Source: Pedobacter sp. PACM 27299
Lineage (GTDB): Bacteria; Bacteroidota; Bacteroidia; Sphingobacteriales; Sphingobacteriaceae
Length of the DNA: 64,000 bases
Direction: 5' to 3'
Assembly (NCBI RefSeq): GCF_001412655.1
Contig: NZ_CP012996.1
Span: forward strand, 4,526,001-4,590,000
The notes under the pieces are model-generated. The model searched no databases. It saw only the letters and a program-made list of their open reading frames with translations, and had not been told where the DNA came from. Position numbers and translations under genes: made by a program. Below, piece after piece: positions 2,437-34,691 of this stretch. Each line of letters opens with the position of its first letter. Positions within the stretch are counted from its first letter, which is position 1.

Positions 2437-5400
2437 TTAAAAACTCAACACTGCAGTATATGTCTTAAATGGTCCAGGAACAAACCTCATCACCATAACA
2501 TTATTACCTATACTTTCAAGAGAAAATATATTACTTACACCCTTCACTCCAGATACCCAATAATTAGCAGGGTACCCTGAGAATCTATCAATCACATTAA
2601 TATTCGCTGGCGGCCAAAAATCATCTACTGTACTATTATTCATGTTTGCGTCTCTAATCTCAAATAATACAACAGGAGCTTGTTCAGCTGGAGTCTTACC
2701 AAACATTGTATTATCAATATTTATCCTTAGCACATCTAGTCTTGTCCCTGCAGGAACATTAACTATAAATTTAGTTTTTAGTCCCGGTACATCACCATCT
2801 ACCTGGGCTATAGTTATTCCATCTCCACTTGCTTTAACCATTGCATAAGCTAAACTATTTGGATGATAGTACTTTATGGTACCTCCACCACCTCCAGTAC
2901 CTCCACCCGTAGCCGGAGTAGCCCAGGTTGCGGCTGTTCCAGCTGCATTTACTGTTAATACTTTATCTTTATCTCCCGCTGTAATGATCGGATATGGCGT
3001 CAATTTGCTTTTTTCTGCTGGTAACATTAAACCTGCCTCAGTGGTTGAACTTGCAGGAATCACAGCAGCAACATTACTTGTAGAACTATTGATCGTTCCA
3101 TTTGTAGCACTGGCAGTATAAGTAAGATCTGTCTTAGTAGAAATTACTCCGGCTGCATCAATCGCAATACCGGCACCTGTTTTCACCCCACCCAATGCAG
3201 CAGCTGTAGCTGCAGGCAAAGTGTAAGTAGCACCGCCACCAGCTGCTGGTGTTACCCAGGTCGCATCGCCCGAAGCATTAGCGGTAAGCACTTTACCTGC
3301 ATCAGCGGCAACAGGGCTTGTAATTTTATTTAATTTAACTTTATCAGTGGCTGGCATTAATCCAGCAGCAGTAGTGGTTGCACCGGTAATCGTTGCTCCA
3401 GCTCCTGCTGCAGTACTGGACTGCAGGGTTCCGTTGATTGGGCCTACTGTATACGTCAGGTCTGTTGGCACAGGTGTTCCCGGAATCGTAATGTTTGCAG
3501 AGCCATCAAAATTAACTCCGTTGATTGTTCTTGGTGTACTTAGTTTTGTCGCTGTTGTGGCATTAAAACTACCCGTACCATCTCTTTTTACAATAGTATT
3601 TGCCGTACTCGCTGTGGTTGCGGCATTGGCCAGGTCTACCCCTGATTTAATATTTGCAGCAGTTGCTCCGCCAACAGTTGCGACTAAAGGAAGGTCTGCT
3701 GTTCCTGAAGCATGTGCTAAATCACCTGCCAATTTAAGGATACCTTTTGTGGTAGAAGTTGCTGGTGAGCCACCTCCCACCTGAGCATCCACATAAGTTT
3801 TCACTGCTTTGGCAGTAGGGTATTTAATATCTGATCCAGCATCTGTGGTAATGCTAAGGGTTTTGTTACTAACCTCCTCTTTATCATCGATGCCCAGTTC
3901 TGTTTTAAGCGCTGCAGGCGTCACCTGTCCTAAGGTGGTTGCGCTAGTTGCTTTGATATAATTCCCTGCAGTATAGGAGTTCATTCCAGTACCGCCATTT
4001 GCTACGCCTACTGTTCCTGTAACTGTAGTTGCCGAACTTGCGTTTCCTGTCAGGTCCCCAACAATTTTCCCTGTTCCATCTCTTTTAACGATGGTATTTG
4101 CGGTAGCTGAGGTAGTTGCAGCGTTCGCTGCATTTGCACCATTGGCTACCTGTGCAGCGGTTATTCCACCAACGAAAGCAACTTTAGGGGCTGCTGCCGT
4201 TCCGTTTAAATCACCAGCCAATTGTAAGATACCTTTCCCAGATAAGGTTGCATCTGGTGCTCCTGCTGAAGTAGAGGCATCCACATAGGCTTTTACAGCT
4301 TTTACACTTGGATATTTCTGATCAGATAAAGCATCTGTGGTAATACTTAGACTTTTATTAGCCAGCAGCTCTTTGTCATCTAGCAGGGCCTGGGTAGCAA
4401 TACTGACTGGCTTATTGGCATCACTGGTATTATTTACATTGTTTAAGCCAAGATCTGCAGCCGTTAAGGTTACATTTCCTGTTTTTGTATTTACGGATTG
4501 TACACCCGCACCTGGCGTAAGAATTTCTTTCCAGTTGTTCAAAGCACTTGCTGGAAGTGCTGCCAGCACAAAACTTTTAGATTCGCTGGTATTAATTACT
4601 GTACTTCCCACCTGGGCTCCCGAAATGGCCAGCATCTCTGCCTGTGTGGTCACTACATTTACTGAAGAGAAAGAAATTGCAGGAATCTGGCTGGAAGGAA
4701 TTTTTCCATTGCCATCTAAGGTGGCTACCCCATTTACTGCTGCTTTCTCGGCTCTATCAATTTTATCCTGCAAAGCAGTTTTTGTGGCATCACTAATGAT
4801 TTTATCCTTATCGGCAACGTTAGATACTTTATCTAAGCCCAGGTCTGCTTTTAACTGTGTTTTAGTAATTTGTGCGAGTTTCGTTGGCGTTTCTGCAATT
4901 AGGATTCCTCCTGTGGCATAAGTATTCAATCCTGTTCCACCTTTTGCAACTGGTAAAAGAGTGATCAAAGGTTCTTTTAGTGCTAAGCCAGGAACGGTAG
5001 GTGCTTCTGCAATACCTCCAAGATCTCCGGCCAGCTGCACCTTACCCAATAATACGGAGGTTGCATTTGGCACCCCTCCTGCTCCGATTACAGCAGCATT
5101 TACTTTATCCTCTACATAAGTACGTACGGCACTTTCTGAAGGGTATTTATTAGGTGAGTTGGTAGCCAGTGTACCATCTGTGGTTTTATTTGCCACATCT
5201 TCTTTAGCATTAATGCCCAGATCTGCTTTTACCTGATCAGGTGTTCTTTGCTGTAAAGTAGTTGCATCCACCGCATTGATATAATTTCCTGGTGTGTAAG
5301 AAACAATGCCGGTACCACCATTAGGTACCTGGACTACTCCGGTAACAGAGGTTGCAGAAGTCGCAGTGGAAGCATTACCAATTAAATCACCAGTCACTTT

Positions 5401-7347
5401 TCCGACTACAATATTGCCATTGGCATCTCTTTTCACGATGGTTTCCCCCAGATTGGCAGCAGTTGCTGCATTTGCTAGGTCTACCCCTTTTTTAATGTCA
5501 GCTGCAGTTACGCCCCCAACCTTAATTACTTGCGGCGCATCAGCTGTTCCACCGAGGTCATTTGAAAGCATCAACTGACCTTTTAAAGTCGTTGTTGCAT
5601 CTACAATAGCGCCTTTTGAGTCAATATAAGACTTAACTGCTTTTACCGATGGATACTTGATATCTGAAGCGGCATCTGTTAGAATAGAAGTGCTTTTATT
5701 TGCTTTATCTTCTTTGGCGTCCAGTGCAGTTTGCGTTAATGTACTGATGGGTTTATCAAGGTCACTTACGTTATCTACATTACCAAGGCCTAAATTTGTT
5801 TTTGCATCAGCGGCATTGGTTGCACCTGTACCACCATTTGCAATCGCTATAATACCGGTCACATTTGTGGCATTTCCTGGAATATTTCCAGTGACTTTAC
5901 CCCCGCTTACGGTTCCTATTTTAGCATCAGTTACACTGCCATCTTTAATTTTATCGGCAGTAATCGCATTGTCAGCAATAGAGAGAGGTGTTGCATTTCC
6001 GTCGCCGGTTAAGGTGGCGTCATGCTTTACGGAAGTCATCCCACCACCAGCTGCAGTGGTGATTTTTGCTTGTAATTCTTCTAATGCAGCCTGTACATTG
6101 GTGGAGGTTACCCCTCCCCTTGGATCTACAGGTACAGTACTCGCTACTTGTTTTCCTCCCGAACCGCCATTTCCTAATAAGCCCTGTAAATCAACTTTAC
6201 TATTTCTTGGTCCAGAGATCGAGATCACCGTCCCTTCCAGGCTTAAACTTTGGTTTAAATCGGCTAAACTCACCGTATTACTGCCTCTAATAGACAGGTT
6301 ATATCCAGCATCAAAGCTCAGCATGGGTAATGCCCCACCTGCTACTAATTTATCATCTACATATTTTTTAGTTGCTGCATCCTGATTATTAGTCGGATCT
6401 AACAAGTTTGTTAATTTAAAACCGCCCATAGAAACATTCTTTGCCGCTGCGCCGAATCCACTTAAGGGGATATTCTTTTTGTCTAAATCAACATTTGCGA
6501 TAGAACCATCTGCAATCTTTATAGAAGTAACCGCATTATCCGCCAGATCAAGGGTTAAGTCTGTCAACACTGCTTCTCTTCCGTTGCCAATGGCAATAGT
6601 TCCAGATGACGTGACTGCTTTCCCCATTCCAGGTAAAGAATTCCCCGGAGTTCCCGGATCTCCTTTTTCTCCTTTAAGTCCTTGATCTCCTTTTATACCT
6701 TCTGGACCAATTAATCCTTGAATTCCCTGAAGCCCCTGATCCCCTTTTAAACCTTGTTGACCAGTTAATCCCTGAATGCCCTGAGCCCCTTGGTCTCCTT
6801 TTAATCCCTGTAGTCCGTTTGATCCCTGATCACCTTTCAGTCCCTGATCTCCTTTTAAACCTTGTTCCCCTTTATCGCCTTTATCCCCTTTTGGGCCGAC
6901 TAATAAAATACCATTATTTGGCCATGCTCCTGCTGTTTTTGGCCCATAAAGGCTGTTATTACCTAAATGAAGGTAAAAATCACCATTGGTACCAATCATT
7001 GGAGAAGGCGTTGAAGCACCACTTAAAATGGTATTTCCACTGGCTCCAGTTCCGCCGCCAGCACTTAATTCCGAGTTATTTACCAATCGCTGCCATTGGC
7101 CGTTATTAAAATAATAGAAACCAGGAAGCGTATTGGTTTGGTAGATCAATAAACCATTGGCAGGATTATTGATCCCTTCACGTTGAATAAGGGTGAGTCT
7201 AGGAATAAGTAAACCTTTGGAAGTAGAGAGCACTTCAAGCTGCGCACTGGCATCCGGTACGTTAGTACCTATTCCTACCTGAGCTTTTGCACCAAATGCA
7301 AATAGCAACCCAATAAGCATGGCGTATTGCTTAACTGTTTTATTCAT
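2437..7347 (-). CDS. Giant secreted protein with collagen-like segment and tail-fibre-like repeats (1636 aa)
   Basis: A signal peptide (residues 1-23, ending AKAQ) precedes a VGIGTNVPDASAQLEV head, a start common in Bacteroidota exported structural proteins. Residues about 151-237 are 29 uninterrupted Gly-X-Y triplets rich in GDQ, GLK and GIQ. Then come DAATKKYVDD, a VTSTNVQAALEELQ element, and at least four divergent copies of a unit of about 150-220 residues with ANGGTG, NLGL..V.N.SD, YPS.KAVK.YVD, GDL.GTA and NTIVKRDG motifs. These are tail-fibre-like signatures. The last 150 residues are non-repetitive (IKYYHPNSLAYAM to the end) and may be a folded tip domain. No membrane anchor or T9SS CTD is visible. 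Long shadow frames on the opposite strand come from the biased composition. The role is inferred to be a trimeric surface fibre or adhesin. Confidence 0.85.
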   Translation of the reverse strand: MNKTVKQYAMLIGLLFAFGAKAQVGIGTNVPDASAQLEVLSTSKGLLIPRLTLIQREGINNPANGLLIYQTNTLPGFYYFNNGQWQRLVNNSELSAGGGTGASGNTILSGASTPSPMIGTNGDFYLHLGNNSLYGPKTAGAWPNNGILLVGPKGDKGDKGEQGLKGDQGLKGDQGSNGLQGLKGDQGAQGIQGLTGQQGLKGDQGLQGIQGLIGPEGIKGDQGLKGEKGDPGTPGNSLPGMGKAVTSSGTIAIGNGREAVLTDLTLDLADNAVTSIKIADGSIANVDLDKKNIPLSGFGAAAKNVSMGGFKLTNLLDPTNNQDAATKKYVDDKLVAGGALPMLSFDAGYNLSIRGSNTVSLADLNQSLSLEGTVISISGPRNSKVDLQGLLGNGGSGGKQVASTVPVDPRGGVTSTNVQAALEELQAKITTAAGGGMTSVKHDATLTGDGNATPLSIADNAITADKIKDGSVTDAKIGTVSGGKVTGNIPGNATNVTGIIAIANGGTGATNAADAKTNLGLGNVDNVSDLDKPISTLTQTALDAKEDKANKSTSILTDAASDIKYPSVKAVKSYIDSKGAIVDATTTLKGQLMLSNDLGGTADAPQVIKVGGVTAADIKKGVDLANAATAANLGETIVKRDANGNIVVGKVTGDLIGNASTATSATSVTGVVQVPNGGTGIVSYTPGNYINAVDATTLQQRTPDQVKADLGINAKEDVANKTTDGTLATNSPNKYPSESAVRTYVEDKVNAAVIGAGGVPNATSVLLGKVQLAGDLGGIAEAPTVPGLALKEPLITLLPVAKGGTGLNTYATGGILIAETPTKLAQITKTQLKADLGLDKVSNVADKDKIISDATKTALQDKIDRAEKAAVNGVATLDGNGKIPSSQIPAISFSSVNVVTTQAEMLAISGAQVGSTVINTSESKSFVLAALPASALNNWKEILTPGAGVQSVNTKTGNVTLTAADLGLNNVNNTSDANKPVSIATQALLDDKELLANKSLSITTDALSDQKYPSVKAVKAYVDASTSAGAPDATLSGKGILQLAGDLNGTAAAPKVAFVGGITAAQVANGANAANAATTSATANTIVKRDGTGKIVGDLTGNASSATTVTGTVGVANGGTGMNSYTAGNYIKATSATTLGQVTPAALKTELGIDDKEEVSNKTLSITTDAGSDIKYPTAKAVKTYVDAQVGGGSPATSTTKGILKLAGDLAHASGTADLPLVATVGGATAANIKSGVDLANAATTASTANTIVKRDGTGSFNATTATKLSTPRTINGVNFDGSANITIPGTPVPTDLTYTVGPINGTLQSSTAAGAGATITGATTTAAGLMPATDKVKLNKITSPVAADAGKVLTANASGDATWVTPAAGGGATYTLPAATAAALGGVKTGAGIAIDAAGVISTKTDLTYTASATNGTINSSTSNVAAVIPASSTTEAGLMLPAEKSKLTPYPIITAGDKDKVLTVNAAGTAATWATPATGGGTGGGGGTIKYYHPNSLAYAMVKASGDGITIAQVDGDVPGLKTKFIVNVPAGTRLDVLRINIDNTMFGKTPAEQAPVVLFEIRDANMNNSTVDDFWPPANINVIDRFSGYPANYWVSGVKGVSNIFSLESIGNNVMVMRFVPGPFKTYTAVLSF
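6637..6897 (-). repeat. Collagen-like Gly-X-Y tract inside the 1636-aa protein
   Basis: The segment encodes 29 consecutive Gly-X-Y triplets, starting GPKGDKGDKGEQ and ending GEKGDPGTPGNS. At DNA level it is a run of near-identical 9-18 base blocks, so it is prone to length change by slippage. Such tracts form triple helices in other bacterial and phage proteins, which fits a trimeric fibre. Confidence 0.85.
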
Positions 7348-20597: not shown

Positions 20598-23500
20598 ATG
20601 TCGCTGTTCAGTTTAAAAAACATAAGTAGAAATTGTTTTTTATTACTATTAACGATTACGTTAATTGTGATCTGGGGAGGCGATGTGAAAGGACAACGGG
20701 TATATGGACAATATGTTGTAACGACTCCTGCAAATTCAGGTGGTTCGCCAGGAGCAGGTGGTGCGGGTGGACTTTTAGGCGGTGCTGGTAATCAAGGAAC
20801 ATTTTTAGTAACGAATCCAGGAAATGCAAGTGATGGTGACTTAACAAATTTTGCAACCCTTAGTGCAACTAGTGGTAGTGGAGGTAATTTAGGCGGAAAT
20901 GTAGGTCAACTTTCTACTGCATTTATCAACCTAAACTTTACAGGCTCTGTTACGCCAGCAGCTCAAAATGCGATTATTTTTAAACTTACAGGTGGAGATT
21001 TAACTAAAATTTTTGTACAAGCATATAATGGCACTACACCTGTTGGCACCGCACAAGCAGTTAGCGGTCTGTCAAAAACAGGCTCCGGTGATTATATTTT
21101 TACACCTACTGCCGCATGTAATTCTATAGGAATTATAATCAACACAGCTGTTTCAGGTTTACTTGGAGTTACCTCAATTAATAATGCAAATATTTATTAC
21201 GCTTATTTCATGGATCCAACCTGTTCCTTAAGCAGTTATACAACCACTAGTATGACTGGAATAAACGTCAGTTCTACTTTTCTAACCCCAGACAATGCAA
21301 TTGACGGAAATATAACAACTTATTCCAGATTATCTACCGGACTCGGCGTAGCAACAACCTTAAATCAGGACATATACTTATCTAAATTAACAGGTGCTCA
21401 AGACGCAGCTACCATCACCTTTTCTATTCCACCATCTGTTCTGGCAGCCGGTGTTGCTGCTTACATTAATATAATCACTTATAATGGTACAACAAATGTT
21501 GGTCAGATAGCCTTTTCTGGACTCTTGCTAGGTACTGATTTATTAAACTTAGTAAAATCCGGATTACCAACTACGCTCTCTTACGCACCTGGTGTCCCTT
21601 TTAATCGTATTCAGATTTCCAGCTCTTCTTTGGTCGGATTGGCGACTAGTTTAGACATTTATGAAGTTACTACCACTCCTGCGAAGCCTACTTTTACCTC
21701 GACAACTACACAAAATGTGACCATTTGCGCTGGAAACCCTGCCACCTTAAACGCTATACCAGCTAGTTCAGTTAATGAATTGAGGTGGTATTCTGCCATA
21801 ATGGGTGGAGCATTATTACATACCGGTAACTCTTATACACCAATCCCTACGCCTACCGCCGATACAACTACTTATTTTGTAGCGACTGGAAAAATAGGTT
21901 GTACTATTGAATCAGAACGTGTTCCAGCCAAAATAATCGTCCGACCGTTACCTGTTGTAGCTGCGATTACCGGAACTTTATCTACCTGTATGGGCTCAAC
22001 AACCCAGTTGGGAAATCCTACCACTGGTGGTGCATGGTCTAGCCTAAATACAGCTATTGCAACCATAAGCAGTACTGGGCTTGTGAGTGGTGTTGCTCCA
22101 GGAACAGCCACAATTAACTATGTCGTCAACGGGACAAACGGTTGTCCGACTACGGTATTAGCAACCATCACCATAAACGCTTTACCTGTGGTTAATGCAA
22201 TTACGGGAACTTTATCTGCCTGTATCGGTAATACCACACAATTATCCAGCAGCACTTCTGCTGGAGTTTGGACCAGCGGCACTCCTGCTGTGGCCACTAT
22301 AAACAGCAGCGGATTAGTGACGGGAGTAACCACCGGAACTTCCCTGATCACTTATACGGTAACCAATGGAAATGGTTGTGTAGCCAGTCAAACCGCAACA
22401 GTAACCATCAACGCTTTACCGGTAGTTTCCGCTATTACTGGAACATTAACTGCATGTATAGGTAATACCACACAATTATCCAGTACTACTTCTGGTGGAG
22501 TCTGGAGCAGTGGTACTCCTGCCGTGGCCACTGTAAGCAGCAGCGGGTTAGTGACTGGTGTAACTTCCGGAACTGCTGTGATTACCTATACCGTAACCAA
22601 TGCGAATGGTTGTACTGCTTCGCAAATGACAACTGTCACCATCAATCCTTTACCAGTTGTTGCCGCTATTACCGGCACTTTAAGCGCCTGCATCGGCAAT
22701 ACTACTCAATTATCCTGCAGCACTTCTGGTGGAGTCTGGACCAGTGCGACTCCTGCTGTAGCTACTGTAAACAGCAGCGGATTACTCACCGGAGTAACTG
22801 CCGGAACGTCAGTGATCACCTATACAGTGACCAATGCAAATGGTTGTATCGCTAAGCAAACCGCAACCGTCACCATCAACGCTTTACCTGTAGTTGCTGC
22901 GATTACAGGAACGTTATCTGCCTGTATCGGTAATACTACTCAATTATCCAGCACCACTTCTGCTGGAGTCTGGACTAGCGGTACTCCGGCTGTGGCAAGC
23001 ATAAATAGTAGTGGATTGGTAACTGGCCTAACCTCCGGAACATCCCTAATTACTTACACAGTGACCAATGGAAACGGCTGTGTCGCTACACAAACAACGA
23101 CAGTTACCATCAATGCTTTACCAGTAGTTGCTCCTATTACAGGGACAATGAGCACGTGTATAGGTAAAACAACTCAGCTAGCCAATACGACAAGTTCAGG
23201 AGTATGGAGCAGTGTTAATCCAACTATTGCGACTGTAAACAGTGCTGGTCTGGTAACTGGTGTTGCTGTTGGAACAGCTACAATTAACTATACAGTAACC
23301 AATTCAAATGGTTGTATCACAATAGTGACTACCAGCGTGGCTGTTCATTTGCAACCTGCCCTCCCAGCGATTAGTCAGAAAAACTTATGCTTAGGCCAAT
23401 CCATAGACCTGAACACACTAAATCCAAGCGATGGAAACGGAACAACAGGCGGCAATTACTCCTGGTCTGCGATTGGTGCAGGAGGAACTCCTCTAAGCGC

Positions 23501-23633
23501 TACTCTGGTCTCCCCTGCACTTGGCAATACCACCTATTACTTAAGATATACAAAAGATGGCTGCTTCAGCGACAGCAGTGTGCTGATCATTATGCACCCA
23601 AAACCGCCTACCCCTCATGTCACTTTAAATTAA
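20598..23633 (+). CDS. Secreted protein with six BIG2-like Ig repeats, adhesin-like (1011 aa)
   Basis: A signal peptide (about residues 1-34) precedes two related 170-residue segments with GDLTNFATL and DGNITTYSRL motifs, probably lectin-like or sandwich domains. A short Ig-like segment (NVTICAGNPATL) follows, then six 78-residue bacterial Ig-like repeats with the core LPVV-AITGTLSACIG, GVWTSGTPAVATV and SSGLVTGV. The protein ends in an SDSSVLIIMHPKPPTPHVTLN-type tail with no CHU_C or other T9SS sorting domain. It heads a three-gene operon whose last member does carry that domain. I infer a surface adhesin or gliding-associated protein delivered with its partners. Confidence 0.8.
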   Translation: MSLFSLKNISRNCFLLLLTITLIVIWGGDVKGQRVYGQYVVTTPANSGGSPGAGGAGGLLGGAGNQGTFLVTNPGNASDGDLTNFATLSATSGSGGNLGGNVGQLSTAFINLNFTGSVTPAAQNAIIFKLTGGDLTKIFVQAYNGTTPVGTAQAVSGLSKTGSGDYIFTPTAACNSIGIIINTAVSGLLGVTSINNANIYYAYFMDPTCSLSSYTTTSMTGINVSSTFLTPDNAIDGNITTYSRLSTGLGVATTLNQDIYLSKLTGAQDAATITFSIPPSVLAAGVAAYINIITYNGTTNVGQIAFSGLLLGTDLLNLVKSGLPTTLSYAPGVPFNRIQISSSSLVGLATSLDIYEVTTTPAKPTFTSTTTQNVTICAGNPATLNAIPASSVNELRWYSAIMGGALLHTGNSYTPIPTPTADTTTYFVATGKIGCTIESERVPAKIIVRPLPVVAAITGTLSTCMGSTTQLGNPTTGGAWSSLNTAIATISSTGLVSGVAPGTATINYVVNGTNGCPTTVLATITINALPVVNAITGTLSACIGNTTQLSSSTSAGVWTSGTPAVATINSSGLVTGVTTGTSLITYTVTNGNGCVASQTATVTINALPVVSAITGTLTACIGNTTQLSSTTSGGVWSSGTPAVATVSSSGLVTGVTSGTAVITYTVTNANGCTASQMTTVTINPLPVVAAITGTLSACIGNTTQLSCSTSGGVWTSATPAVATVNSSGLLTGVTAGTSVITYTVTNANGCIAKQTATVTINALPVVAAITGTLSACIGNTTQLSSTTSAGVWTSGTPAVASINSSGLVTGLTSGTSLITYTVTNGNGCVATQTTTVTINALPVVAPITGTMSTCIGKTTQLANTTSSGVWSSVNPTIATVNSAGLVTGVAVGTATINYTVTNSNGCITIVTTSVAVHLQPALPAISQKNLCLGQSIDLNTLNPSDGNGTTGGNYSWSAIGAGGTPLSATLVSPALGNTTYYLRYTKDGCFSDSSVLIIMHPKPPTPHVTLN
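21948..23351 (+). repeat. Six tandem 234-base BIG2-like repeats
   Basis: Units start at 21948, 22182, 22416, 22650, 22884 and 23118, each 234 bases (78 codons). The middle four are very similar at protein and DNA level, while the first and last are more divergent, which is the pattern expected of expansion by unequal recombination. The period was checked on the TTA codon that starts each LPVV motif. Confidence 0.9.
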
Positions 23634-23660
23634 CCTACATAAACTCTTAAAACTTAAATT

Positions 23661-24455
23661 ATGAAAACGAAATTCAAAACCCTGAGCCTAATTGCAATTA
23701 CATTTATCTTATTTGCATTACCTTTCAGCTCCTCTGCAGCTTCTTTTGCACTTTACTTATGCGGAGGGGCTACTGCCGGACTGATTCCTGACGCTGCTGT
23801 CAATGCCACGCTAAAAAATGGTGATAAAATTATGTGGCAAGAATTCGATGCTGCAGGAAATACCCCAATTGGTAGCCCTATAACGGTAACAGTAGCCGCA
23901 GATGCCACTCCACTACCTTTCACCGTAGGAAGCGGACTAAGTGTAGGCGCTCATTATTTTAAAGTATTTATTATTGCTGTTAACCCAAATAACTGTTCGG
24001 GGGATTTATCTGATCCATTCAGCCTTTATGTTTTACCTACCGCTGCTGTTGCTATTGGAACACCTTCCCAAACTAGTTTCTGCGAGGCCAATTCCAATCC
24101 AACTACCCAAAATTCAGTACTTACTGCCACTGCAACAGCATTAGATGCAGCACTTACAGATGTAACGTATGCATTTACCTGGACTGCAACAAAAGATGCG
24201 GCGGCTGTAACTGATGTAACTACCATTGGAGCAATCGGCCCAGTAAGCCCTGTAAATGTGAATACTTTTACTTTAAACAACACTGCAGGACATGGTGCTT
24301 ATATATTCAAAGCAGGTGTTAAATATGTGATTGCTCCTGGGAATGGCGTATTAAAATCACCTAGTGACCTGGGCTGTCCAGCAGAATCTGCGGCATCAGC
24401 AACGATTACTGTAACTCCTAAACCAGGCAAACCAGGTATCCAAATTGCGTCCTAA
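23661..24455 (+). CDS. Secreted protein of unknown function (264 aa)
   Basis: A clear signal peptide (residues 1-27, SSSAA) is followed by two Ig-like or beta-sandwich segments, each with a Cys pair (LYLCGGAT...NNCSGDL and TSFCEANS...LGCPAES). The tail TPKPGKPGIQIAS closely resembles the end of the preceding 1011-residue protein (HPKPPTPHVTLN). It starts 27 bases after that gene and ends 17 before the next, so it is the middle gene of the adhesin operon. No enzyme motif is visible. Confidence 0.75.
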   Translation: MKTKFKTLSLIAITFILFALPFSSSAASFALYLCGGATAGLIPDAAVNATLKNGDKIMWQEFDAAGNTPIGSPITVTVAADATPLPFTVGSGLSVGAHYFKVFIIAVNPNNCSGDLSDPFSLYVLPTAAVAIGTPSQTSFCEANSNPTTQNSVLTATATALDAALTDVTYAFTWTATKDAAAVTDVTTIGAIGPVSPVNVNTFTLNNTAGHGAYIFKAGVKYVIAPGNGVLKSPSDLGCPAESAASATITVTPKPGKPGIQIAS

Positions 24456-24472
24456 TCATTAGCTCATAATTA

Positions 24473-25414
24473 ATGTTTAACAGAAAAACAGGTTTTGTGT
24501 CAGGTATGCTGTTGCTCAGTGCAACGGCATGCTTTGCGCAATCTAGTGGCCAGGCAACTGCAGTAATCCCTGCTGGTTCGTCCCTAAAACTTAGGGCTGC
24601 TTCTGTTAATGCAGTGAGTTACCAATGGTTAAAAAATGGTGTCATTATACCGGATGCCACTAATATTGAATATGCCGCTTTCGATCCCGGCATCTACACC
24701 GTAATTTCTTACAATACAAATGGCTGCGCTTCCGATATTTCAGACCCCCTCCTGCTCACTGGCGGGACGGTACTGGTGTTGAGTGCAGATGTGATGATCA
24801 CCAAAAGTTCAGAGAATAAATCGATCACCGTAAATGATGCTTTTGAATACCTGTTACAGGTAAAAAACAATGGCGTCGGCTCTGCCAGCAATGTGAAAGT
24901 TCAGGACATCCTTCCGGAAAACATGGTCTTAGAACAGTTGCTTCACCCTAGCGTAGGTTACGCCGATTATACATTGGGCAGTAGAACCGTCTTATGGCAG
25001 ATTCCAAAACTGGAGAATGGAGAATCAGCAAACTTAAGAATCAGAGTTAAACCTTCGAAACCCGGTATGCTGGAAAACACAGCGACTGTTTCCGCCACAG
25101 AATCAGATCCTGATCTGTCAAATAATACTTCTACCAACCGGAAATCAGTAACAGATTTAATTATTCCGAATGTATTTACGCCAAATGGTGATGGAAAAAA
25201 CGACACGTTTACCATCCCACAATTGGAAAGATATCCTGAAAATGAACTGAGTATTTTCAATCGCTGGGGATCAGCAGTACTGGAGAAAAAACCTTACAAA
25301 AATGACTGGGATGGCTCTCAGCTATCAGAAGGTACTTATTTCTACCTGTTGAAGGTTAAAATGGCCAATAATACCTGGGAGGTATACAAAGGATTTGTCA
25401 CGATTATCCGTTAA
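24473..25414 (+). CDS. Gliding-motility-associated C-terminal (T9SS type B) protein with DUF11 domain (313 aa)
   Basis: After a signal peptide (to about residue 23, CFAQ) comes an Ig-like segment ([16 protein letters not shown]), a DUF11 domain (residues about 105-215: [20 protein letters not shown]...[17 protein letters not shown]) and a CHU_C/gliding-motility C-terminal domain ([37 protein letters not shown]). CHU_C domains direct export through the type IX secretion system and surface attachment. It is short for the class; the long Ig-repeat part sits in a separate upstream gene. A strong terminator follows. Confidence 0.9.
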
Positions 25415-25440: not shown

Positions 25441-25479
25441 AAAAAATCCGGCTCCTCTTCCTGAGGTAGCCGGATTTTT
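25441..25479 (+). terminator. Rho-independent terminator after the adhesin operon
   Basis: AAAAAATCCGGCT pairs with AGCCGGATTTTT across a 14-base loop, with a T run on the plus strand, 27 bases after the stop at 25414. Confidence 0.85.
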
Positions 25480-25545
25480 CATTTTTAGGAATTTTTAATA
25501 CAATGTATGCCCTCAACAACAAAAAACAAATCATCAAGACCTTAT

Positions 25546-25560
25546 GTTATTCACAATAAC
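25546..25560. promoter_or_regulatory. Perfect palindrome upstream of the type III PKS operon
   Basis: GTTATT-cac-AATAAC is a perfect 6-base inverted repeat ending 11 bases before the ATG at 25572. Its position at the probable transcription start makes it a candidate repressor site. No regulator gene is adjacent. Confidence 0.4.
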
Positions 25561-25571
25561 TATGAAAAGAG

Positions 25572-26699
25572 ATGGAATCTAAGATTGAAGTACTGATAAT
25601 AGGAGCTGGACTATCTGGATTAACGGCAGCACTTCATTTTTTAAAATCAGGATTTCCAGTTACGATGGTAGAAAAATCGTCCTATCCTCATCATAAAGTT
25701 TGTGGCGAGTACTTATCAAATGAAGTAATACCCTATCTGGAATGGCTAGGTATCGATTTAAACCTATTGTCTCCCGTATCCATTGATAAATTTCAATTTT
25801 CCACGAATGACGGACAACTGCTGCAAGCTACTTTGCCTTTGGGTGGTTTGGGAATCAGCAGGTATGCTTTAGATCATTTCCTTTTTCAGGAAGCGATAGC
25901 CAGGGGCTGTCATATCATCCAAGATACAGTAGTAGACCTGATTTTTAATGAAGATCTGTTCCTTGTTAAAATGGCAAATCACGACCCGATTACAGCAAAA
26001 ATTGTGATTGGTGCTTACGGCAAACGAGATGGCCTGGATCAAAAACTATCCCGCAGCTTTATTCAAAAAAAATCACCATGGCTCGCTATAAAGGCACATT
26101 ATGATGGTTCCTTCCCTGATGATCTGGTAGGCCTCCACAATTTTGAAGGTGGCTATTGCGGCGTTTCAAAAGTTGAAAAAGACAGGATCAATATCTGCTA
26201 CCTTGTTGACTATGCTACTTTTAAAAAGTATAAAAGCATTCCAGAACACCGTTTGCAGGTACTTTATAAAAACCCTCATTTGAGAAGAATATTTGAAACT
26301 TCGAAACCCTTGTTTGATCAGCCTTTAACCATTGGACAAATATCTTTTGAGAAGAAAACAGTCATAGAAAACCATGTACTGATGATTGGTGATACTGCCG
26401 GTCTGATCCATCCTTTTTGTGGAAATGGAATGGCAATGGCCATTCATAGTGCAAAAATTTGTGCATCCAGCGTGATCGCCTATCTGGAAGGAGGATTGTT
26501 ATCCAGGTCAAAACTGGAAAAACAGTACCGAACCTCGTGGAATCAAAATTTCCTGAGTCGCATCACTGCGGGAAAAATAATGTCTGGAATTCTAAGAAAA
26601 AAACAACTGACCAGTAAATTCATGCGTATATTAATAAAATATCCCTTTCTATTGTCCATGATGATCAAGCAAACCCACGGCAAACCGATAATACCCTAA
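25572..26699 (+). CDS. FAD-dependent oxidoreductase, geranylgeranyl-reductase/hydroxylase-like (375 aa)
   Basis: The FAD-binding motif GAGLSGLTAALHFL is at residues 11-24, followed by the group signature HHKVCGEYLSNEV and the second FAD motif MIGDTAGLIHPFCGNGMAMA near residue 275. This layout belongs to flavoprotein monooxygenases and reductases acting on lipid or aromatic substrates. It is the first gene of the polyketide operon, with the methyltransferase beginning three bases after its stop. In the Streptomyces srs operon a flavoprotein hydroxylates the alkylresorcinol made by a type III PKS; a similar tailoring role here is inference. Confidence 0.8.
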   Translation: MESKIEVLIIGAGLSGLTAALHFLKSGFPVTMVEKSSYPHHKVCGEYLSNEVIPYLEWLGIDLNLLSPVSIDKFQFSTNDGQLLQATLPLGGLGISRYALDHFLFQEAIARGCHIIQDTVVDLIFNEDLFLVKMANHDPITAKIVIGAYGKRDGLDQKLSRSFIQKKSPWLAIKAHYDGSFPDDLVGLHNFEGGYCGVSKVEKDRINICYLVDYATFKKYKSIPEHRLQVLYKNPHLRRIFETSKPLFDQPLTIGQISFEKKTVIENHVLMIGDTAGLIHPFCGNGMAMAIHSAKICASSVIAYLEGGLLSRSKLEKQYRTSWNQNFLSRITAGKIMSGILRKKQLTSKFMRILIKYPFLLSMMIKQTHGKPIIP

Positions 26700-26702
26700 C
26701 CA

Positions 26703-27452
26703 ATGGTAGATACCACTTATAGAAGCGAATTGCCAGAAATTATGGATAACTTTTCCATGGAAGGAGAAATATTAAAAGACGCACTCGACAAAATAGCAGG
26801 AATTAACCAATTGTTGGGAGGCAATAAAGTGACGCTTGATGGGGTAAAAAAACTCCTGAATGAGGCTACGTCTCCCTTAAATAAGCCTGTAGCAACAGGA
26901 GTTACCTCACACAGCACCACAATCAGTATACTTGATGTGGGTTGCGGCAATGGAGATATGCTGCGTGTTTTAGCAGATTACGCCGCCAGCCATCAGTTGA
27001 AATTTAAACTCAAAGGCATAGATGCCAATGCTTTCACTATTCAACATGCCAGTCGGCTGTCCGCTTCTTACGAAAACATCAGTTATGAATGTATAGACAT
27101 TTTCGACAAATCCGCCTTAAACGTCCCTTTTGATATTATTTTATGCACGCTTACTTTACATCATTTTAAAGACCCAGAACTCCTGCATTTACTCTCTATT
27201 TTTAAAGAAAATGCAAGTTTAGGCATTGTCATTAATGATTTACAGCGCAGTGCGATTCCGTATTACCTGTTTATCGCCTTATGTTTCGTTTTCCGGCTCA
27301 ATAAAATGTCAAAAGAAGACGGACTGATTTCTATCTTAAGGGGATTTAAAAGAAAAGATCTGGAACAATACGCCAGTCAATTGAAACTAGTAAACACCTC
27401 CATCCGTTGGAAATGGGCATTCCGTTACCAATGGATTATCCCGACCATATGA
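26703..27452 (+). CDS. Class I SAM-dependent methyltransferase (249 aa)
   Basis: Motif I is ILDVGCGNGDMLRV at about residues 76-89, with an acidic motif II in LKGIDANAF and a motif IV-like FDIILCTLTLHHF. The first 65 residues are helical and lie before the Rossmann core. It sits between the flavoprotein and the type III PKS, and its stop overlaps the PKS start in an ATGA arrangement. The likely role is O- or C-methylation of the PKS product; the target atom is unknown. Confidence 0.82.
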   Translation: MVDTTYRSELPEIMDNFSMEGEILKDALDKIAGINQLLGGNKVTLDGVKKLLNEATSPLNKPVATGVTSHSTTISILDVGCGNGDMLRVLADYAASHQLKFKLKGIDANAFTIQHASRLSASYENISYECIDIFDKSALNVPFDIILCTLTLHHFKDPELLHLLSIFKENASLGIVINDLQRSAIPYYLFIALCFVFRLNKMSKEDGLISILRGFKRKDLEQYASQLKLVNTSIRWKWAFRYQWIIPTI

Positions 27453-28501
27453 GCGTAAAAATTATAACAGTAGCAAAAGCAATTCCTGAATTTTCAAGAA
27501 CCACCAGCGAAATTATCCCCTTTCTTGACAGCTGGCTGGCTGCACAGGAAGAGCGTTTCAAAAGAAAAGTCAAGAAAGTTTTTGAGAATGCAATGGTGGA
27601 TCAACGATATTCTATAATGTCGCCAGAGGATGTTTTTGGAAAAACATCTTTTGAAGAACGCAATAACCTGTACATCCGGGAAGGCATCAAACTTGGCACT
27701 ACCTGTTTAAGGGAGGCGCTGGCCAAAGCAAATTGGAAATCTACCGACCTGGACTATATCATTACCGTCAGCTGTACTGGTATCATGATTCCCTCTTTAG
27801 ACGCTTATCTGATCAATGCTTTGAACCTTCGACAAGACATTGTGCGTCTTCCGGTGACTGAGATGGGCTGTGCTGCAGGCATCTCCGGCATCATTTATGC
27901 CAAGAACTTCTTAAAAGCAAATCCTGGAAAACGAGCAGCTGTTGTGGCAGTAGAATCCCCAACAGCCACCCTGCAGTTGAATGATTTTTCTATGGCCAAT
28001 ATGGTCAGTGCCGCCATTTTTGGCGATGGTGCAGCCTGTGTTTTATTATCAGCGGATGAAAATGACTCCGGTCCTGAAATTATTGGGGAAGAAATGTATC
28101 ATTTCTACAATTCCGAGCAGCTCATGGGTTTTCATTTGAGTAATACCGGTCTGAAAATGGTGCTGGACGTCGATGTTCCGGAAAACATAGCCGCTCATTT
28201 TCCAGAAATCATCCACCCATTTTTAAAGAAACATGATTTAACCCTGCAAGATATTGATCATTTGATCTTCCATCCAGGGGGGAAAAAGATCATTCAGGTG
28301 GTAGAAGAACTTTTCGGAAATTCCGGCAAAAACATCCTGGATACTAAAGAAATATTGCGGCAATACGGTAATATGTCTAGTGCTACCGTCCTGTATGTTC
28401 TGGAACGATTTATGGAAAAGCAGCCGAAAAAAGGAGATTTTGGTCTGATGCTCAGCTTTGGACCCGGTTTTTCTGCGCAGAGAATATTATTAAAGTGGTA
28501 A
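27449..28501 (+). CDS. Type III polyketide synthase, chalcone/stilbene synthase family (350 aa)
   Basis: It extends an acyl starter with malonyl units and cyclises the product. The catalytic triad is complete: Cys in VTEMGCAAGISG, His in IFHPGGKKI and Asn in YGNMSSATVL. The C-terminal GFGPG-like loop reads SFGPGFSAQ. I chose the ATG at 27449 because it overlaps the methyltransferase stop as ATGA and starts with SVKIITVAKAIPE, the usual N-terminus; an in-frame ATG at 27407 would add 14 unlikely residues. Bacterial relatives make alkylresorcinols or alkylpyrones from fatty acyl starters. The downstream ketosynthase and ACP suggest a specific acyl-ACP starter. Confidence 0.93.
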   Translation: MSVKIITVAKAIPEFSRTTSEIIPFLDSWLAAQEERFKRKVKKVFENAMVDQRYSIMSPEDVFGKTSFEERNNLYIREGIKLGTTCLREALAKANWKSTDLDYIITVSCTGIMIPSLDAYLINALNLRQDIVRLPVTEMGCAAGISGIIYAKNFLKANPGKRAAVVAVESPTATLQLNDFSMANMVSAAIFGDGAACVLLSADENDSGPEIIGEEMYHFYNSEQLMGFHLSNTGLKMVLDVDVPENIAAHFPEIIHPFLKKHDLTLQDIDHLIFHPGGKKIIQVVEELFGNSGKNILDTKEILRQYGNMSSATVLYVLERFMEKQPKKGDFGLMLSFGPGFSAQRILLKW

Positions 28502-28525
28502 CTTTACCGGATAATTGAAACAAAT

Positions 28526-28972
28526 ATGAACAAAGAAGAAATCCTAACCCACTTACCTTATAGCAAGCCATTTTTATTTGTTGACGAACTATTATCTATC
28601 GATGAGAATGGTTCTATTGGAACTTATACGTACGATAAAGACCTTGATTTTTACAAAGGACATTTCAAAGATAACCCAGTAACTCCAGGCGTAATTTTAA
28701 CGGAAACTATGGCACAGATCGGACTGGTTTGCCTGGGTATTTTCCTGACTGCCACTGCCACTTCCGGACTTCCAGGACACGTGATGCTGACCTCTACTGC
28801 CATTGATTTCATGAAACCAGTTTTTCCGGGAGAAAAAGTAACTGTAACTACTGAAAAAGTGTATTTCCGTTTTAAAAAGCTCCATTGTAATGTTCAAATG
28901 ACCAATGCAGCAGGTGAAGTAGTTTGTAAAGGAACGATTTCAGGAATGGTAACCAATAAAATGAATGCCTAA
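28526..28972 (+). CDS. 3-hydroxyacyl-ACP dehydratase, FabZ-like hotdog protein (148 aa)
   Basis: LPYSKPFLFVDEL at residues 9-21 and FYKGHFKDNPVTPGVILTETMAQIG near 50-75 are FabZ/FabA family signatures; the catalytic His is in GHF and the catalytic acid is the Glu in LTETMAQ. The C-terminal hotdog strand (VYFRFKKLHCNVQM) is intact. It overlaps the ketosynthase start by 8 bases. Within this operon it probably dehydrates a carrier-bound intermediate when the starter chain is built. Confidence 0.88.
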   Translation: MNKEEILTHLPYSKPFLFVDELLSIDENGSIGTYTYDKDLDFYKGHFKDNPVTPGVILTETMAQIGLVCLGIFLTATATSGLPGHVMLTSTAIDFMKPVFPGEKVTVTTEKVYFRFKKLHCNVQMTNAAGEVVCKGTISGMVTNKMNA

Positions 28973-30242
28973 CAGAGTGGTCATAACAGGTATGGGTGTA
29001 GTTGCACCAAATGGAGTTGGTTTAACTCCATTTCTTGAAGCTATACAGAAGGGCCGCTCCGGCATCAGTTACCATCCCTTATTGGCCAGCCTTGAATTTT
29101 CCTGTCAGATTGCAGGTACGCCTGTGCTTTCTGAGTCCTTAATTGCCAGCTATTTCTCTGAACTTGAATTGAGAAACTTCAACAGTTCAGGTATCTTATA
29201 TGGCGTTATCGCAGCAATGGATGCCTGGAAAGATGCAGGACTAACAATTGATACTTCAGCAGAACCGGATTGGGAGAGCGGGACAATATTTGGCAGCGGC
29301 ACTTCCGGAGTAGATAAATTCCGGGAGGCCATTTACAAAATCGATGCCCTGCAAACCCGCAGATTAGGCAGCAATGTAGTTTCCCAAACAATGGCCAGCG
29401 GTATCAGTGCTTATATCGGTGGAAAGCTGGGACTAGGCAATCAGGTCAGCAGCAACTCATCGGCCTGTACAACTGGCACAGAAAGTATTTTAATGGCTTA
29501 TGAGCGCATTAAATCCGGACAGGCGACTAGAATGCTTGCGGGAAGCACCAGCGACAGCGGGCCTTATATCTGGGCCGGATTTGACGCCATGAAAGTTTGT
29601 ACATTTAAGCATAATGAATCTCCGCAAACGGGTTCCCGTCCAATGAGTGCAAGTGCCAGTGGATTTGTGCCCGGAAGCGGCGCCGGTGCATTTGTTGTGG
29701 AATCGCTGGAGAGTGCCTTGGCCAGAGGTGCTAGAATTTACGCAGAAATCCTGGGTGGGAATATCAACTCAGGCGGACAAAGAGGTACAGGTACCATGAC
29801 TGCCCCAAATGCAATGGCAGTACAGCACTGTATCCGAAAAGCGATTCAAGACGCAGGGATCCAGGCCAGCGAGATCGACCTGATCAACGGACACCTCACC
29901 GCTACCTCAAAAGATACCCTAGAGATCCAAAACTGGTCTGAAGCACTGGAAAGATCCGGCGAAGATTTTCCTTATATCAATTCTTTAAAATCAATGGTCG
30001 GGCATTGCCTGACTGCTGCAGGCAGCATTGAATGTGTCGCAGCCCTATTGCAGATGGAGCGGAGTTTTATCGCCCCAAACCTCAATTGCGAAGACTTGAA
30101 TCCAGCCATCACCGCATTGATTTCGGCCAATAAAATTCCCCAGAAACAAATCCCTCATCCCATCCGTATTCTTGCGAAAGCCAGCTTCGGTTTCGGAGAT
30201 GTGAATGCCTGTATCATTTTTAAAAAACATATTGACAACTGA
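28965..30242 (+). CDS. Beta-ketoacyl-ACP synthase, FabF-like (425 aa)
   Basis: It condenses an acyl group with malonyl-ACP. VITGMGVVAPNGVG opens the thiolase fold. The Cys-His-His triad is present: Cys in SSACTTGTES, His in INGHLTATSKDT and His in MVGHCLTAAGSIE. The first His motif is unusual because FabF normally has HGTST whereas this reads HLTAT. FGFGDVNACIIF near the end replaces the usual FGFGGHNA-like loop. The sequence differs enough from housekeeping FabF to suggest a specialised substrate. It is coupled to the dehydratase and followed by a dedicated ACP. Confidence 0.88.
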   Translation: MPNRVVITGMGVVAPNGVGLTPFLEAIQKGRSGISYHPLLASLEFSCQIAGTPVLSESLIASYFSELELRNFNSSGILYGVIAAMDAWKDAGLTIDTSAEPDWESGTIFGSGTSGVDKFREAIYKIDALQTRRLGSNVVSQTMASGISAYIGGKLGLGNQVSSNSSACTTGTESILMAYERIKSGQATRMLAGSTSDSGPYIWAGFDAMKVCTFKHNESPQTGSRPMSASASGFVPGSGAGAFVVESLESALARGARIYAEILGGNINSGGQRGTGTMTAPNAMAVQHCIRKAIQDAGIQASEIDLINGHLTATSKDTLEIQNWSEALERSGEDFPYINSLKSMVGHCLTAAGSIECVAALLQMERSFIAPNLNCEDLNPAITALISANKIPQKQIPHPIRILAKASFGFGDVNACIIFKKHIDN

Positions 30243-30308
30243 GCTGTTTGTAAGAAACACCATCTATGATCCATCAATATGTTAGCCATACCATTTCACA
30301 AAGAAAAC

Positions 30309-30563
30309 ATGGACAGATCCGTTTTACTCTCCAAATTAAAAGTCATTGTTGCCAATTACAGCCATGATAAAGACGCTTTAGAGTACCTCAATGAAAGCAC
30401 AGACTTCATTAAAGACCTTAAAATTAATTCTGCCAATCTGGTAGATGTGGTCTTAGACGTAGAAGAAGAATTTGATATCGAAATCGACAACCTGTCGATG
30501 GAAAGAATGATCAATGTGAGTGCAGCGATGGAGATCATCAGCGACAAATTGAAAGAAAAATGA
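30309..30563 (+). CDS. Acyl carrier protein (84 aa)
   Basis: A four-helix carrier protein with the attachment region DLKINSANLVDVVLDVEEEF; the Ser in INSANL should bear 4'-phosphopantetheine. The usual DSL motif reads NSA here, and EEEFDIEI on helix III is typical. I prefer the ATG at 30309 (MDRSVLLSKLK) over 30279 because ten extra residues would precede the first helix. The stop overlaps the phosphopantetheinyl transferase start (ATGA). It probably carries the chain made by the neighbouring ketosynthase and dehydratase. Confidence 0.85.
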   Translation: MDRSVLLSKLKVIVANYSHDKDALEYLNESTDFIKDLKINSANLVDVVLDVEEEFDIEIDNLSMERMINVSAAMEIISDKLKEK

Positions 30564-31027
30564 TAGGAAATGATATTATTGATTTGCGACAGGCCATGCT
30601 GGAAAGCAACTGGCGCAGAAAGGGATATCTGGACAAACTATTCTCCACAAAAGAACAAAATTGGATTCTGAAAGCTAAAGATCAAACGCAAATGGTTTGG
30701 TTGTTGTGGAGCATGAAAGAATCAGCCTATAAAATTCATTCCCGGAGAAACAACTGGCGCGCATTTGCTCCTTTAAAACTGACTTGTCAAACCCTGGAAA
30801 TCAAAGGAGAACGGGTTACCGGCAACGTGCAATGTGAAAATATTACGTTCTTCACGCAAAGCATGCTCAGCCAGCATTTCATTCATACGGTTGCAACAGA
30901 GCAATACCCCTTGCCCACTATTAAGGTGAGTATTAGCAGCTATAATCCCATGGATCCAAGTTATAGAAATACAGATCCGGCCACAGTGAGTCACCATGGC
31001 CGATACCTGGCATTGGCCTATTTATAA
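30560..31027 (+). CDS. 4'-phosphopantetheinyl transferase superfamily protein, AcpS-like (155 aa)
   Basis: MIGNDIIDL at residues 1-9 matches the AcpS/Sfp first Mg-binding motif, and WSMKESAYKIHSRR near residue 50 matches the second motif with its Glu and Lys. The C-terminal SSYNPMDPS...VSHHGRYLALAYL part is less typical. The gene overlaps the ACP by four bases, so it most likely loads that carrier. It is the last gene of the operon, converging on ppx. Confidence 0.8.
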   Translation: MIGNDIIDLRQAMLESNWRRKGYLDKLFSTKEQNWILKAKDQTQMVWLLWSMKESAYKIHSRRNNWRAFAPLKLTCQTLEIKGERVTGNVQCENITFFTQSMLSQHFIHTVATEQYPLPTIKVSISSYNPMDPSYRNTDPATVSHHGRYLALAYL

Positions 31028-34106: not shown

Positions 34107-34691
34107 TTATTTGCTTTCTACGGCATCTTTTGCAGGTGTTGAATCCGTTGCTGCTGGTTTTTCCACCGCTGATTCAGCAGGCGCATTGCCTGATTCAGGT
34201 GCTTTTTCCGGAGCTTTAGCCGCTGCAGGAGCCGTTGTTTTTTTAGCAGGTCTGCCGACACTGGATTTAGCTACAGGCGATTTTGCCGCTGGAGCTTTCG
34301 TTGCAGCAGTTTTAGCAGCAGCAGGTGCTTTTACAGCTGTAGCAGCTTTTGCAGCAACAGGTGCTTTTGCAGCCGTTTTAGCTGGAACTTTCGCTGCAGC
34401 AGGTTTTACTTTTACAGCTGTTTTAACGCCAGCAGCAGATTTTTGAACTGCTCCATTTACTGCTTCAGTCACTTCTTTCTTCACTACAACTGCTTTGTCA
34501 GCTGTTTTTTTGGCAACAGATTTTGCTTTAACTGTTGCTTTTTTTAAGGGCTTAGCCAAGGCAACAGCGGCTTTTTCTTCGGTAGCAATCGCCGCAACTT
34601 TTACGCTTTGAACCACCGGTTTAGCTTTTGCTACTGCTTTCTTAACCACTTTCTTTGCTTTCTTTACCTCCTTATTCAACTCTTTTTTCAA
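34107..34691 (-). CDS. Histone H1-like Lys/Ala/Pro-rich protein, C-terminal part after a frameshift (194 aa as read)
   Basis: The sequence is almost wholly K, A, V and P, with KKAVAKAKPVV-type blocks like eukaryotic H1 tails and bacterial Hc1/AlgP proteins, so it probably binds DNA. As read, the only start is a TTG at 34691 that overlaps the stop of the preceding frame. Upstream of that TTG the same frame stays open for 11 codons (FEKKAEKKAKS) and matches the composition. Adding one T to the run at 34722-34724 joins it to the N-terminal frame as AAG-CCT-TTT-GAA and gives a 287-residue protein. I therefore treat this and the next entry as one gene. Confidence 0.65.
   Translation of the reverse strand: MKKELNKEVKKAKKVVKKAVAKAKPVVQSVKVAAIATEEKAAVALAKPLKKATVKAKSVAKKTADKAVVVKKEVTEAVNGAVQKSAAGVKTAVKVKPAAAKVPAKTAAKAPVAAKAATAVKAPAAAKTAATKAPAAKSPVAKSSVGRPAKKTTAPAAAKAPEKAPESGNAPAESAVEKPAATDSTPAKDAVESK

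Follow-up and report, generated by a model that had tools for sequence, protein, structure and literature searches.

The window analysed here is a 64-kb stretch of the 6.15-Mb single-contig genome of Pedobacter sp. PACM 27299, whose closest named neighbours in the trees described below are likewise Pedobacter, and it carries a compact operon in which a type III polyketide synthase (PKS) is joined to genes of the fatty-acid type. Seven co-directional genes occupy positions 25572-31027 of the plus strand, in the order FAD-dependent oxidoreductase (FMO), methyltransferase (MT), PKS, dehydratase (DH), ketosynthase (KS), acyl carrier protein (ACP) and phosphopantetheinyl transferase (PPTase). This composition, which an initial annotation had proposed from the sequence, is borne out gene by gene by open reading frames and by Pfam and NCBIfam matches; the first reading frame begins at 25572 rather than at 25546 as given there. 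The FMO (25572..26699) falls into the aromatic hydroxylase/halogenase/GG-reductase superfamily (Pfam FAD_binding_3, 39.9 bits; gathering score 22) and precedes a class I S-adenosylmethionine-dependent MT (26703..27452; Methyltransf_25, 45 bits, gathering score 27), for which the best NCBIfam model, PRK06202, scores 113.7 bits, below its cut-off of 243. The 350-aa type III PKS (27449..28501; Chal_sti_synt N/C, 76.6/73.5 bits, gathering score 27) is separated by a junction of 24 bases (28502..28525) from a FabZ-like 3-hydroxyacyl-ACP DH (28526..28972; FabA-like, 48.8 bits, gathering score 23), which is followed by a FabF-like KS (28965..30242; ketoacyl-synt N/C, 99.1/90.4 bits, gathering score 20.8), the ACP (30279..30563, starting at 30279 or 30309) and the 4'-PPTase (30560..31027; ACPS, 43.6 bits, gathering score 25). 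Adjacent genes overlap at MT-PKS, DH-KS and ACP-PPTase. The ACP bears its phosphopantetheine serine in the motif NSANLVD and hits an NCBIfam model for acyl carrier proteins (E 3.7e-9, below the cut-off of that model), with no Pfam match at E <= 0.001. The PPTase shows the motif WSMKESAYK, similar to that of its relatives, and two more ACPS-family genes are encoded elsewhere in the genome. The PKS starts at ATG 27449, where start codon and MT stop codon overlap as ATGA, and not at TTG 27407: the protein read from the TTG has an in-match stop codon in many relatives, the one read from 27449 in 0 of 47 listed matches, and the same ATGA overlap recurs in 64 of the 98 loci with an MT match.

Related loci were collected via their PKS, and linkage figures thus describe PKS carriers; counts of neighbour families, motifs and gene matches exclude L087 and L088, which represent a second type III PKS clade (36-38% identity) with a different neighbourhood. 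The order FMO-MT-PKS-(ER)-DH-KS-ACP-PPTase, where ER denotes an additional enoyl-reductase-like gene, recurs in the window and 98 related loci spread over 33 genus labels, part of them codes, a recurrence that places the operon layout beyond chance. Among these 99 loci, matches were found for FMO in 99, MT in 98, PKS in 99, DH in 97, KS in 97, ACP in 93, PPTase in 81 and ER in 41; in the two loci lacking DH and KS matches (L123 and L163) the contig ends soon after the PKS. These eight families are the only widely common neighbours, the next commonest reaching 26 loci and 3 labels. The seven-gene set is therefore a conserved Bacteroidota operon, and its description as a hybrid operon stands. 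As a separate observation, a 553-aa open frame in a Flavobacterium metagenome-assembled genome (MAG; L151), at about -633 from the PKS, seems to span both MT and PKS; either the two genes are fused or the assembly is wrong at this point.

Joint occurrence extends the picture beyond physical linkage. In a genus sample of 88 genomes plus the window's own (89 in total, a few of them <90% complete), orthologues of PKS and KS occurred together in 73 and were jointly missing from the same 16, so that the KS accompanied the PKS in 73/73 carriers and was found in none of the 16 non-carriers, which supports the proposed tie between the ACP module and the PKS. The two genes lay on one contig in 71 of the 73 carriers. 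In one further genome (G028), assembled into 300 contigs, they fell on two of these, and in another (G022; loci L192 and L193) FMO-MT-PKS and DH-KS-ACP-PPTase stood mid-contig on two different contigs, both with full-length matches. Linkage, on which the initial annotation had staked its reading, is thus physically broken in G022, whereas both halves are retained there. Across an evenly drawn class sample, a PKS match at E < 1e-100 occurred in 26 of 395 genomes, with a KS in 26/26. Among 395 genomes drawn from the phylum, 33 PKS matches had at least 64% identity, all within the class, and other classes yielded only PKS relatives of 33-37% identity. Named carriers among the best 80 matches listed included Pedobacter, Flavobacterium, Chitinophaga, Spirosoma, Aequorivita, Dokdonia, Aquimarina and Winogradskyella. 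A KS search against 5.8 billion proteins gave at least 8000 matches, a sign that it may belong to a large family, and the named rows among the best 120 were Pedobacter or Flavobacterium. Over 78 loci, PKS distances correlated with those of KS (r 0.83), FMO (0.80), MT (0.77), DH (0.73) and ACP (0.53), values reached in 0 of 999 permutations.

The catalytic residues claimed to be complete are intact in the window and invariant across readable orthologues, counted over 100 operon loci (the window, the 98 related loci and L192) and numbered from the start of each protein. The PKS triad C141-H275-N308 is kept in 100/100 sequences; KS C168 in 96/96 readable sequences and H310, K342 and H347 in 95/95; DH His46 and Glu60 in 97/97; and ACP Ser51 in 93/93. 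The DH contains the FabZ His-x13-Glu active site within HF..P..PGV...E, and since it scores 69.3 bits against the NCBIfam FabZ equivalog, whose cut-off is 113, it is called FabZ-like. The gating-loop motif FGFGD of the KS (window positions 30186-30200) is found in 95/95 readable operon rows and also in nine other cassette KSs inspected, while two other KSs of the genome read FGFGG. Assignment of the PKS to type III rests on Pfam N- and C-terminal domains above the gathering score, the Cys-His-Asn triad and a CHS-type fold, and it scores only 22.8 bits against the DarB model (cut-off 550), which sets it apart from DarB-type ketosynthases. Its closest solved relatives by fold are PKS11 and CylI, and its best NCBIfam model is DpgA, at 193 bits. 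That match would suit a reversed order of synthesis, in which the PKS makes a DpgA-like aromatic starter, the ACP takes up this starter, and KS and DH lengthen it into an aryl chain. The DpgA score, however, lies far below its cut-off of 425, PKS11 and CylI are the closest solved structures, and no ligase or acyl transferase family belongs to the conserved unit, so we rate this order as highly improbable.

Taken together, a dedicated type II fatty-acid cassette probably feeds the PKS with acyl-ACP, and the alkylresorcinol-like compound made by the PKS would then be methylated and oxidised. Gene content and order, intact active sites, conservation, and joint retention and absence are observed directly; that acyl-ACP is the donor, the kind of chain and of ring, and the sequence of the tailoring steps are inferred. 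In this pathway the PPTase would arm the ACP, on which KS and DH, together with housekeeping FabG and malonyl transfer, would build or extend an acyl chain; enoyl reduction would fall to a housekeeping enzyme in the lineage of the window and to the operon's own FabL-like enzyme in other lineages. The type III PKS would take the chain as starter, add malonyl units and cyclise the product, most likely to an alkylresorcinol-type core and possibly to a pyrone. The MT may then methylate the ring and the FAD enzyme hydroxylate or oxidise it, yielding a methylated hydroxy- or quinone-type lipid; a tailoring role for both enzymes, as initially proposed, appears likely. The superfamily of the FAD enzyme also includes halogenases, and such an activity would give a halogenated phenol lipid instead. 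Halogenases typically carry a WxWxIP motif. In a structure comparison of the FMO, however, hydroxylases follow the leading matches within about 2.5-4 Z units, with identities of 13-18% among the matches listed, and WxW occurs nowhere in the window FMO, meaning that the halogenase motif is missing; halogenation is accordingly regarded as very unlikely.

The junction between PKS and DH is the site at which 41 of the 99 loci carry an eighth gene, absent from the window, encoding a short-chain dehydrogenase/reductase (SDR) of about 265 aa. FabL is both its best PDB relative and its best NCBIfam model, although the scores (154.5 bits in L084, 127.9 in L083 and 126.3 in L079) all fall under the cut-off of 328, for which reason it is termed FabL-like rather than FabL. 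The protein shows the Y-x6-K spacing attributed to FabL in passages of a review (PMC9260719), with the tyrosine in 41/41 sequences and the lysine in 40/40 readable ones; the usual SDR serine column is not conserved (S in 24, A in 16 and G in 1 of 41). Judging from the FabL match and this spacing, the inserted gene most likely encodes an enoyl reductase and not a ketoreductase. Ketoreductase identity was considered and set aside on the strength of the PDB match, the NCBIfam match and the spacing. The families conserved in the operon therefore include no ketoreductase; a FabG above cut-off is encoded elsewhere in this genome. PKS and KS trees omit 18 of 101 loci (L087, L088 and rows that are truncated or come from MAGs) and also include L192 or L193 and other KSs. 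On the PKS tree, a quick tree, the ER state changes at least 8 times, with starred branches forcing 4 of these changes. The gene is present in the most divergent operons (L079-L083) and in the PKS-less cassettes L184, L185, L186 and L188 described below, a pattern that suggests repeated loss, the direction of change being inferred.

The patchy ER raises the possibility that in ER-less lineages, that of the window among them, KS and DH act with FabG to yield a polyunsaturated chain like that of aryl polyenes, which would make the final compound a phenol or pyrone with a polyenyl tail and perhaps a pigment. The ER is missing in 46 of the 83 scored PKS-tree rows, while every readable row keeps the active sites of KS and DH, and no FabL-like orthologue was found elsewhere in the genome of the window, where the five best matches have 26-30% identity. 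SDR matches in the same genome at twelve loci (L210-L221, several of them the same gene), read for Y-x3-K or Y-x6-K, showed no clear enoyl-reductase spacing, and a search for housekeeping FabI with one NCBIfam model gave 27 matches, 0 of them above cut-off, a result that was likewise 0 in 14 control genomes and therefore carries no weight. A housekeeping enoyl reductase could nevertheless substitute, and neither DarB-type nor other aryl-polyene gene families belong to the conserved unit according to NCBIfam models and the neighbour-family survey, which agrees with the initial view that this is no aryl polyene or flexirubin cluster. A polyenyl product is thus conceivable but doubtful, and supply of an acyl chain reduced by a housekeeping enzyme remains the preferred reading for the window.

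The cassette is not confined to the company of this PKS. KS relatives of 48-57% identity occur in other genomes without this PKS alongside, so that unlinking, in this second sense, was indeed encountered. ACP-ER-DH-KS-PPTase sets at L184:8970-12629 and L186:5867-9903 lack a PKS and lie a few genes from ppk-/ppx-like genes, a vicinity common to both sets and to the operon of the window, downstream of which ppx (identified by Pfam Ppx-GppA) and a gene that by eye resembles ppk point towards the operon. L185 holds a PKS-less ER-KS-KASIII-DH-ACP set, and the cassette of L188 stands near a DarB gene whose product scores 634.8 against the DarB model. Neighbours resembling glycosyltransferase and asparagine synthase genes (named by eye) lie beside DH-KS-ACP-PPTase in L189:9147-11790 and KS-ACP-PPTase at the contig start in L190:43-2206. 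In the KS tree, the KSs of PKS operons are separable from those of PKS-less cassettes by one change, with several long branches and a weak support of 54. The PKS-less sets and this tree together portray a portable cassette for which the PKS operon is one of several uses. Alternatively, the cassette might make a special fatty acid for lipid or glycan decoration while the PKS uses ordinary acyl-CoA, the two sharing only a promoter or niche. The occurrence of DH-KS-ACP-PPTase, with or without ER, apart from the PKS in L184, L186, L188, L189 and L190 fits this idea, as does the separability of the halves in G022. Joint presence and joint absence without exception in the genus sample, retention of both halves in the split genome and a gene order fixed across loci argue against it, and we hold it to be unlikely.

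Several points nevertheless weigh against the acyl-ACP pathway favoured here. The PKS-less cassettes (L184-L186 and L188-L190) imply that the cassette has uses of its own. A PPTase match is missing in 18 of the 99 loci, including Aequorivita and Dokdonia rows (a divergent candidate was seen by eye in L081), and an ACP match is missing in 6, of which 3 are at actual or possible contig ends. Counts of joint presence and distance correlations ignore the kinship of genomes. The operon must rely on other genes for ketoreduction and for malonyl loading. Finally, PKS position 228, a column taken to correspond to ArsB W281, is F in 98/99 loci and Y in 1/99; because PKS11 has W and CylI has L there, this residue does not decide between resorcinol and pyrone.

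Near the operon, a hairpin (AATCCGGCT...AGCCGGATT) that leads into a run of T at 25445..25480 on the plus strand was read from the sequence as a possible terminator of the upstream gene; it is not one of the four sites of a terminator scan and is unconfirmed. That scan gave 4 terminator-like sites against 5.4 expected, and promoter-like sites numbered 22 against 13.2 expected; no conclusion is built on them. Three upstream genes occupy 20598-25414 (plus strand); the product of the last bears a type IX secretion signal (CHU_C), and by eye the first contains repeated segments. Elsewhere in the window, a 1636-aa protein with collagen-like G-x-x-GDKG stretches is encoded at 2437-7347 (minus strand), and a 194-aa Lys/Ala-rich protein that by eye resembles a histone H1-like tail at 34107-34691 (minus strand).

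Type III PKSs are commonly portrayed as independent of a carrier protein. If correct, the pathway proposed here would constitute a natural type III PKS line fed by acyl-ACP and kept across families, suited to the study of hand-off, with the patchy ER serving as a natural experiment on tail chemistry. Speculatively, one might picture a private type II line in Bacteroidota that passes acyl-ACP directly to a type III PKS making a membrane phenol or quinone, with repeated loss of the FabL-like enzyme having switched the tail from saturated to polyunsaturated in lineages like that of the window; this extension is tentative and, on present indications, improbable. By antiSMASH, type III PKS clusters have been described as the second commonest cluster class in Flavobacteriaceae (9%), according to passages of PMC7440613. 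Five Pedobacter isolates from amphibian skin share seven genes in a type III PKS cluster, which may or may not be the seven described here, and the authors saw no clear link between cluster and fungal inhibition (passages of PMC10452622); in the parts of both papers that deal with such clusters, no product is given. Within the open-access literature surveyed (titles, beginnings of abstracts and passages, with subscription papers outside its range), neither an operon joining this PKS to the cassette nor a product of one is described.

Among the described systems found, the closest relatives of the front half are the three-gene hid, planctomycete and pkq operons, the srs operon being outside the comparison, and the front half probably works by analogy with these triads. 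As in hidABC, which underlies the cyanobacterial hierridins, and in the operons of Planctomycetota, an MT, a FAD oxidoreductase and a type III PKS are contiguous. For operons of this type, passages of PMC10896814 report PKSs that yield alkylresorcinols and, upon co-expression of the G. maris genes, a single methylation. The order given in the same passages is MT-oxidoreductase-PKS, whereas it is oxidoreductase-MT-PKS in the window and related loci, and, in a comparison by description, KS, DH, ACP and PPTase do not figure there. The pkqABC operons of Mycobacterium and Streptomyces similarly combine a type III PKS with a methyltransferase and an oxidoreductase, and their products are methylated quinones; unlike the present operon, the PKS comes first, and the passages concerned describe three genes and no fatty-acid cassette (PMC9927152, PMC8730385).

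The window PKS shares 26-27% identity with CylI and 31-32% with mycobacterial PKS11, whose structure entries carry titles naming a resorcinol product and alkylpyrone intermediates, respectively; the gene company of both differs from that of the window operon. In its overall design, the operon resembles the ars operon of Azotobacter vinelandii (ArsA-D), where type III PKSs likewise share one operon with a fatty-acid synthase dedicated to them. ArsA is a type I synthase with the ACP as one of its domains, whereas ACP, KS and DH are here separate type II proteins that cover only some of the steps. Passages of PMC6274091 relate that ArsB and ArsC receive chains from the ACP domain of ArsA, and that germicidin synthase and SCO7671 of Streptomyces coelicolor accept hexanoyl-ACP; unlike the case described here, those passages mention no dedicated cassette for the latter two, and germicidin synthase (3v7i) shows 21% identity to the window PKS in a structure alignment. 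These ArsA-ArsB/ArsC and hexanoyl-ACP cases (passages of PMC6274091) are precedents for the proposed hand-over of an acyl chain from ACP to the type III PKS.

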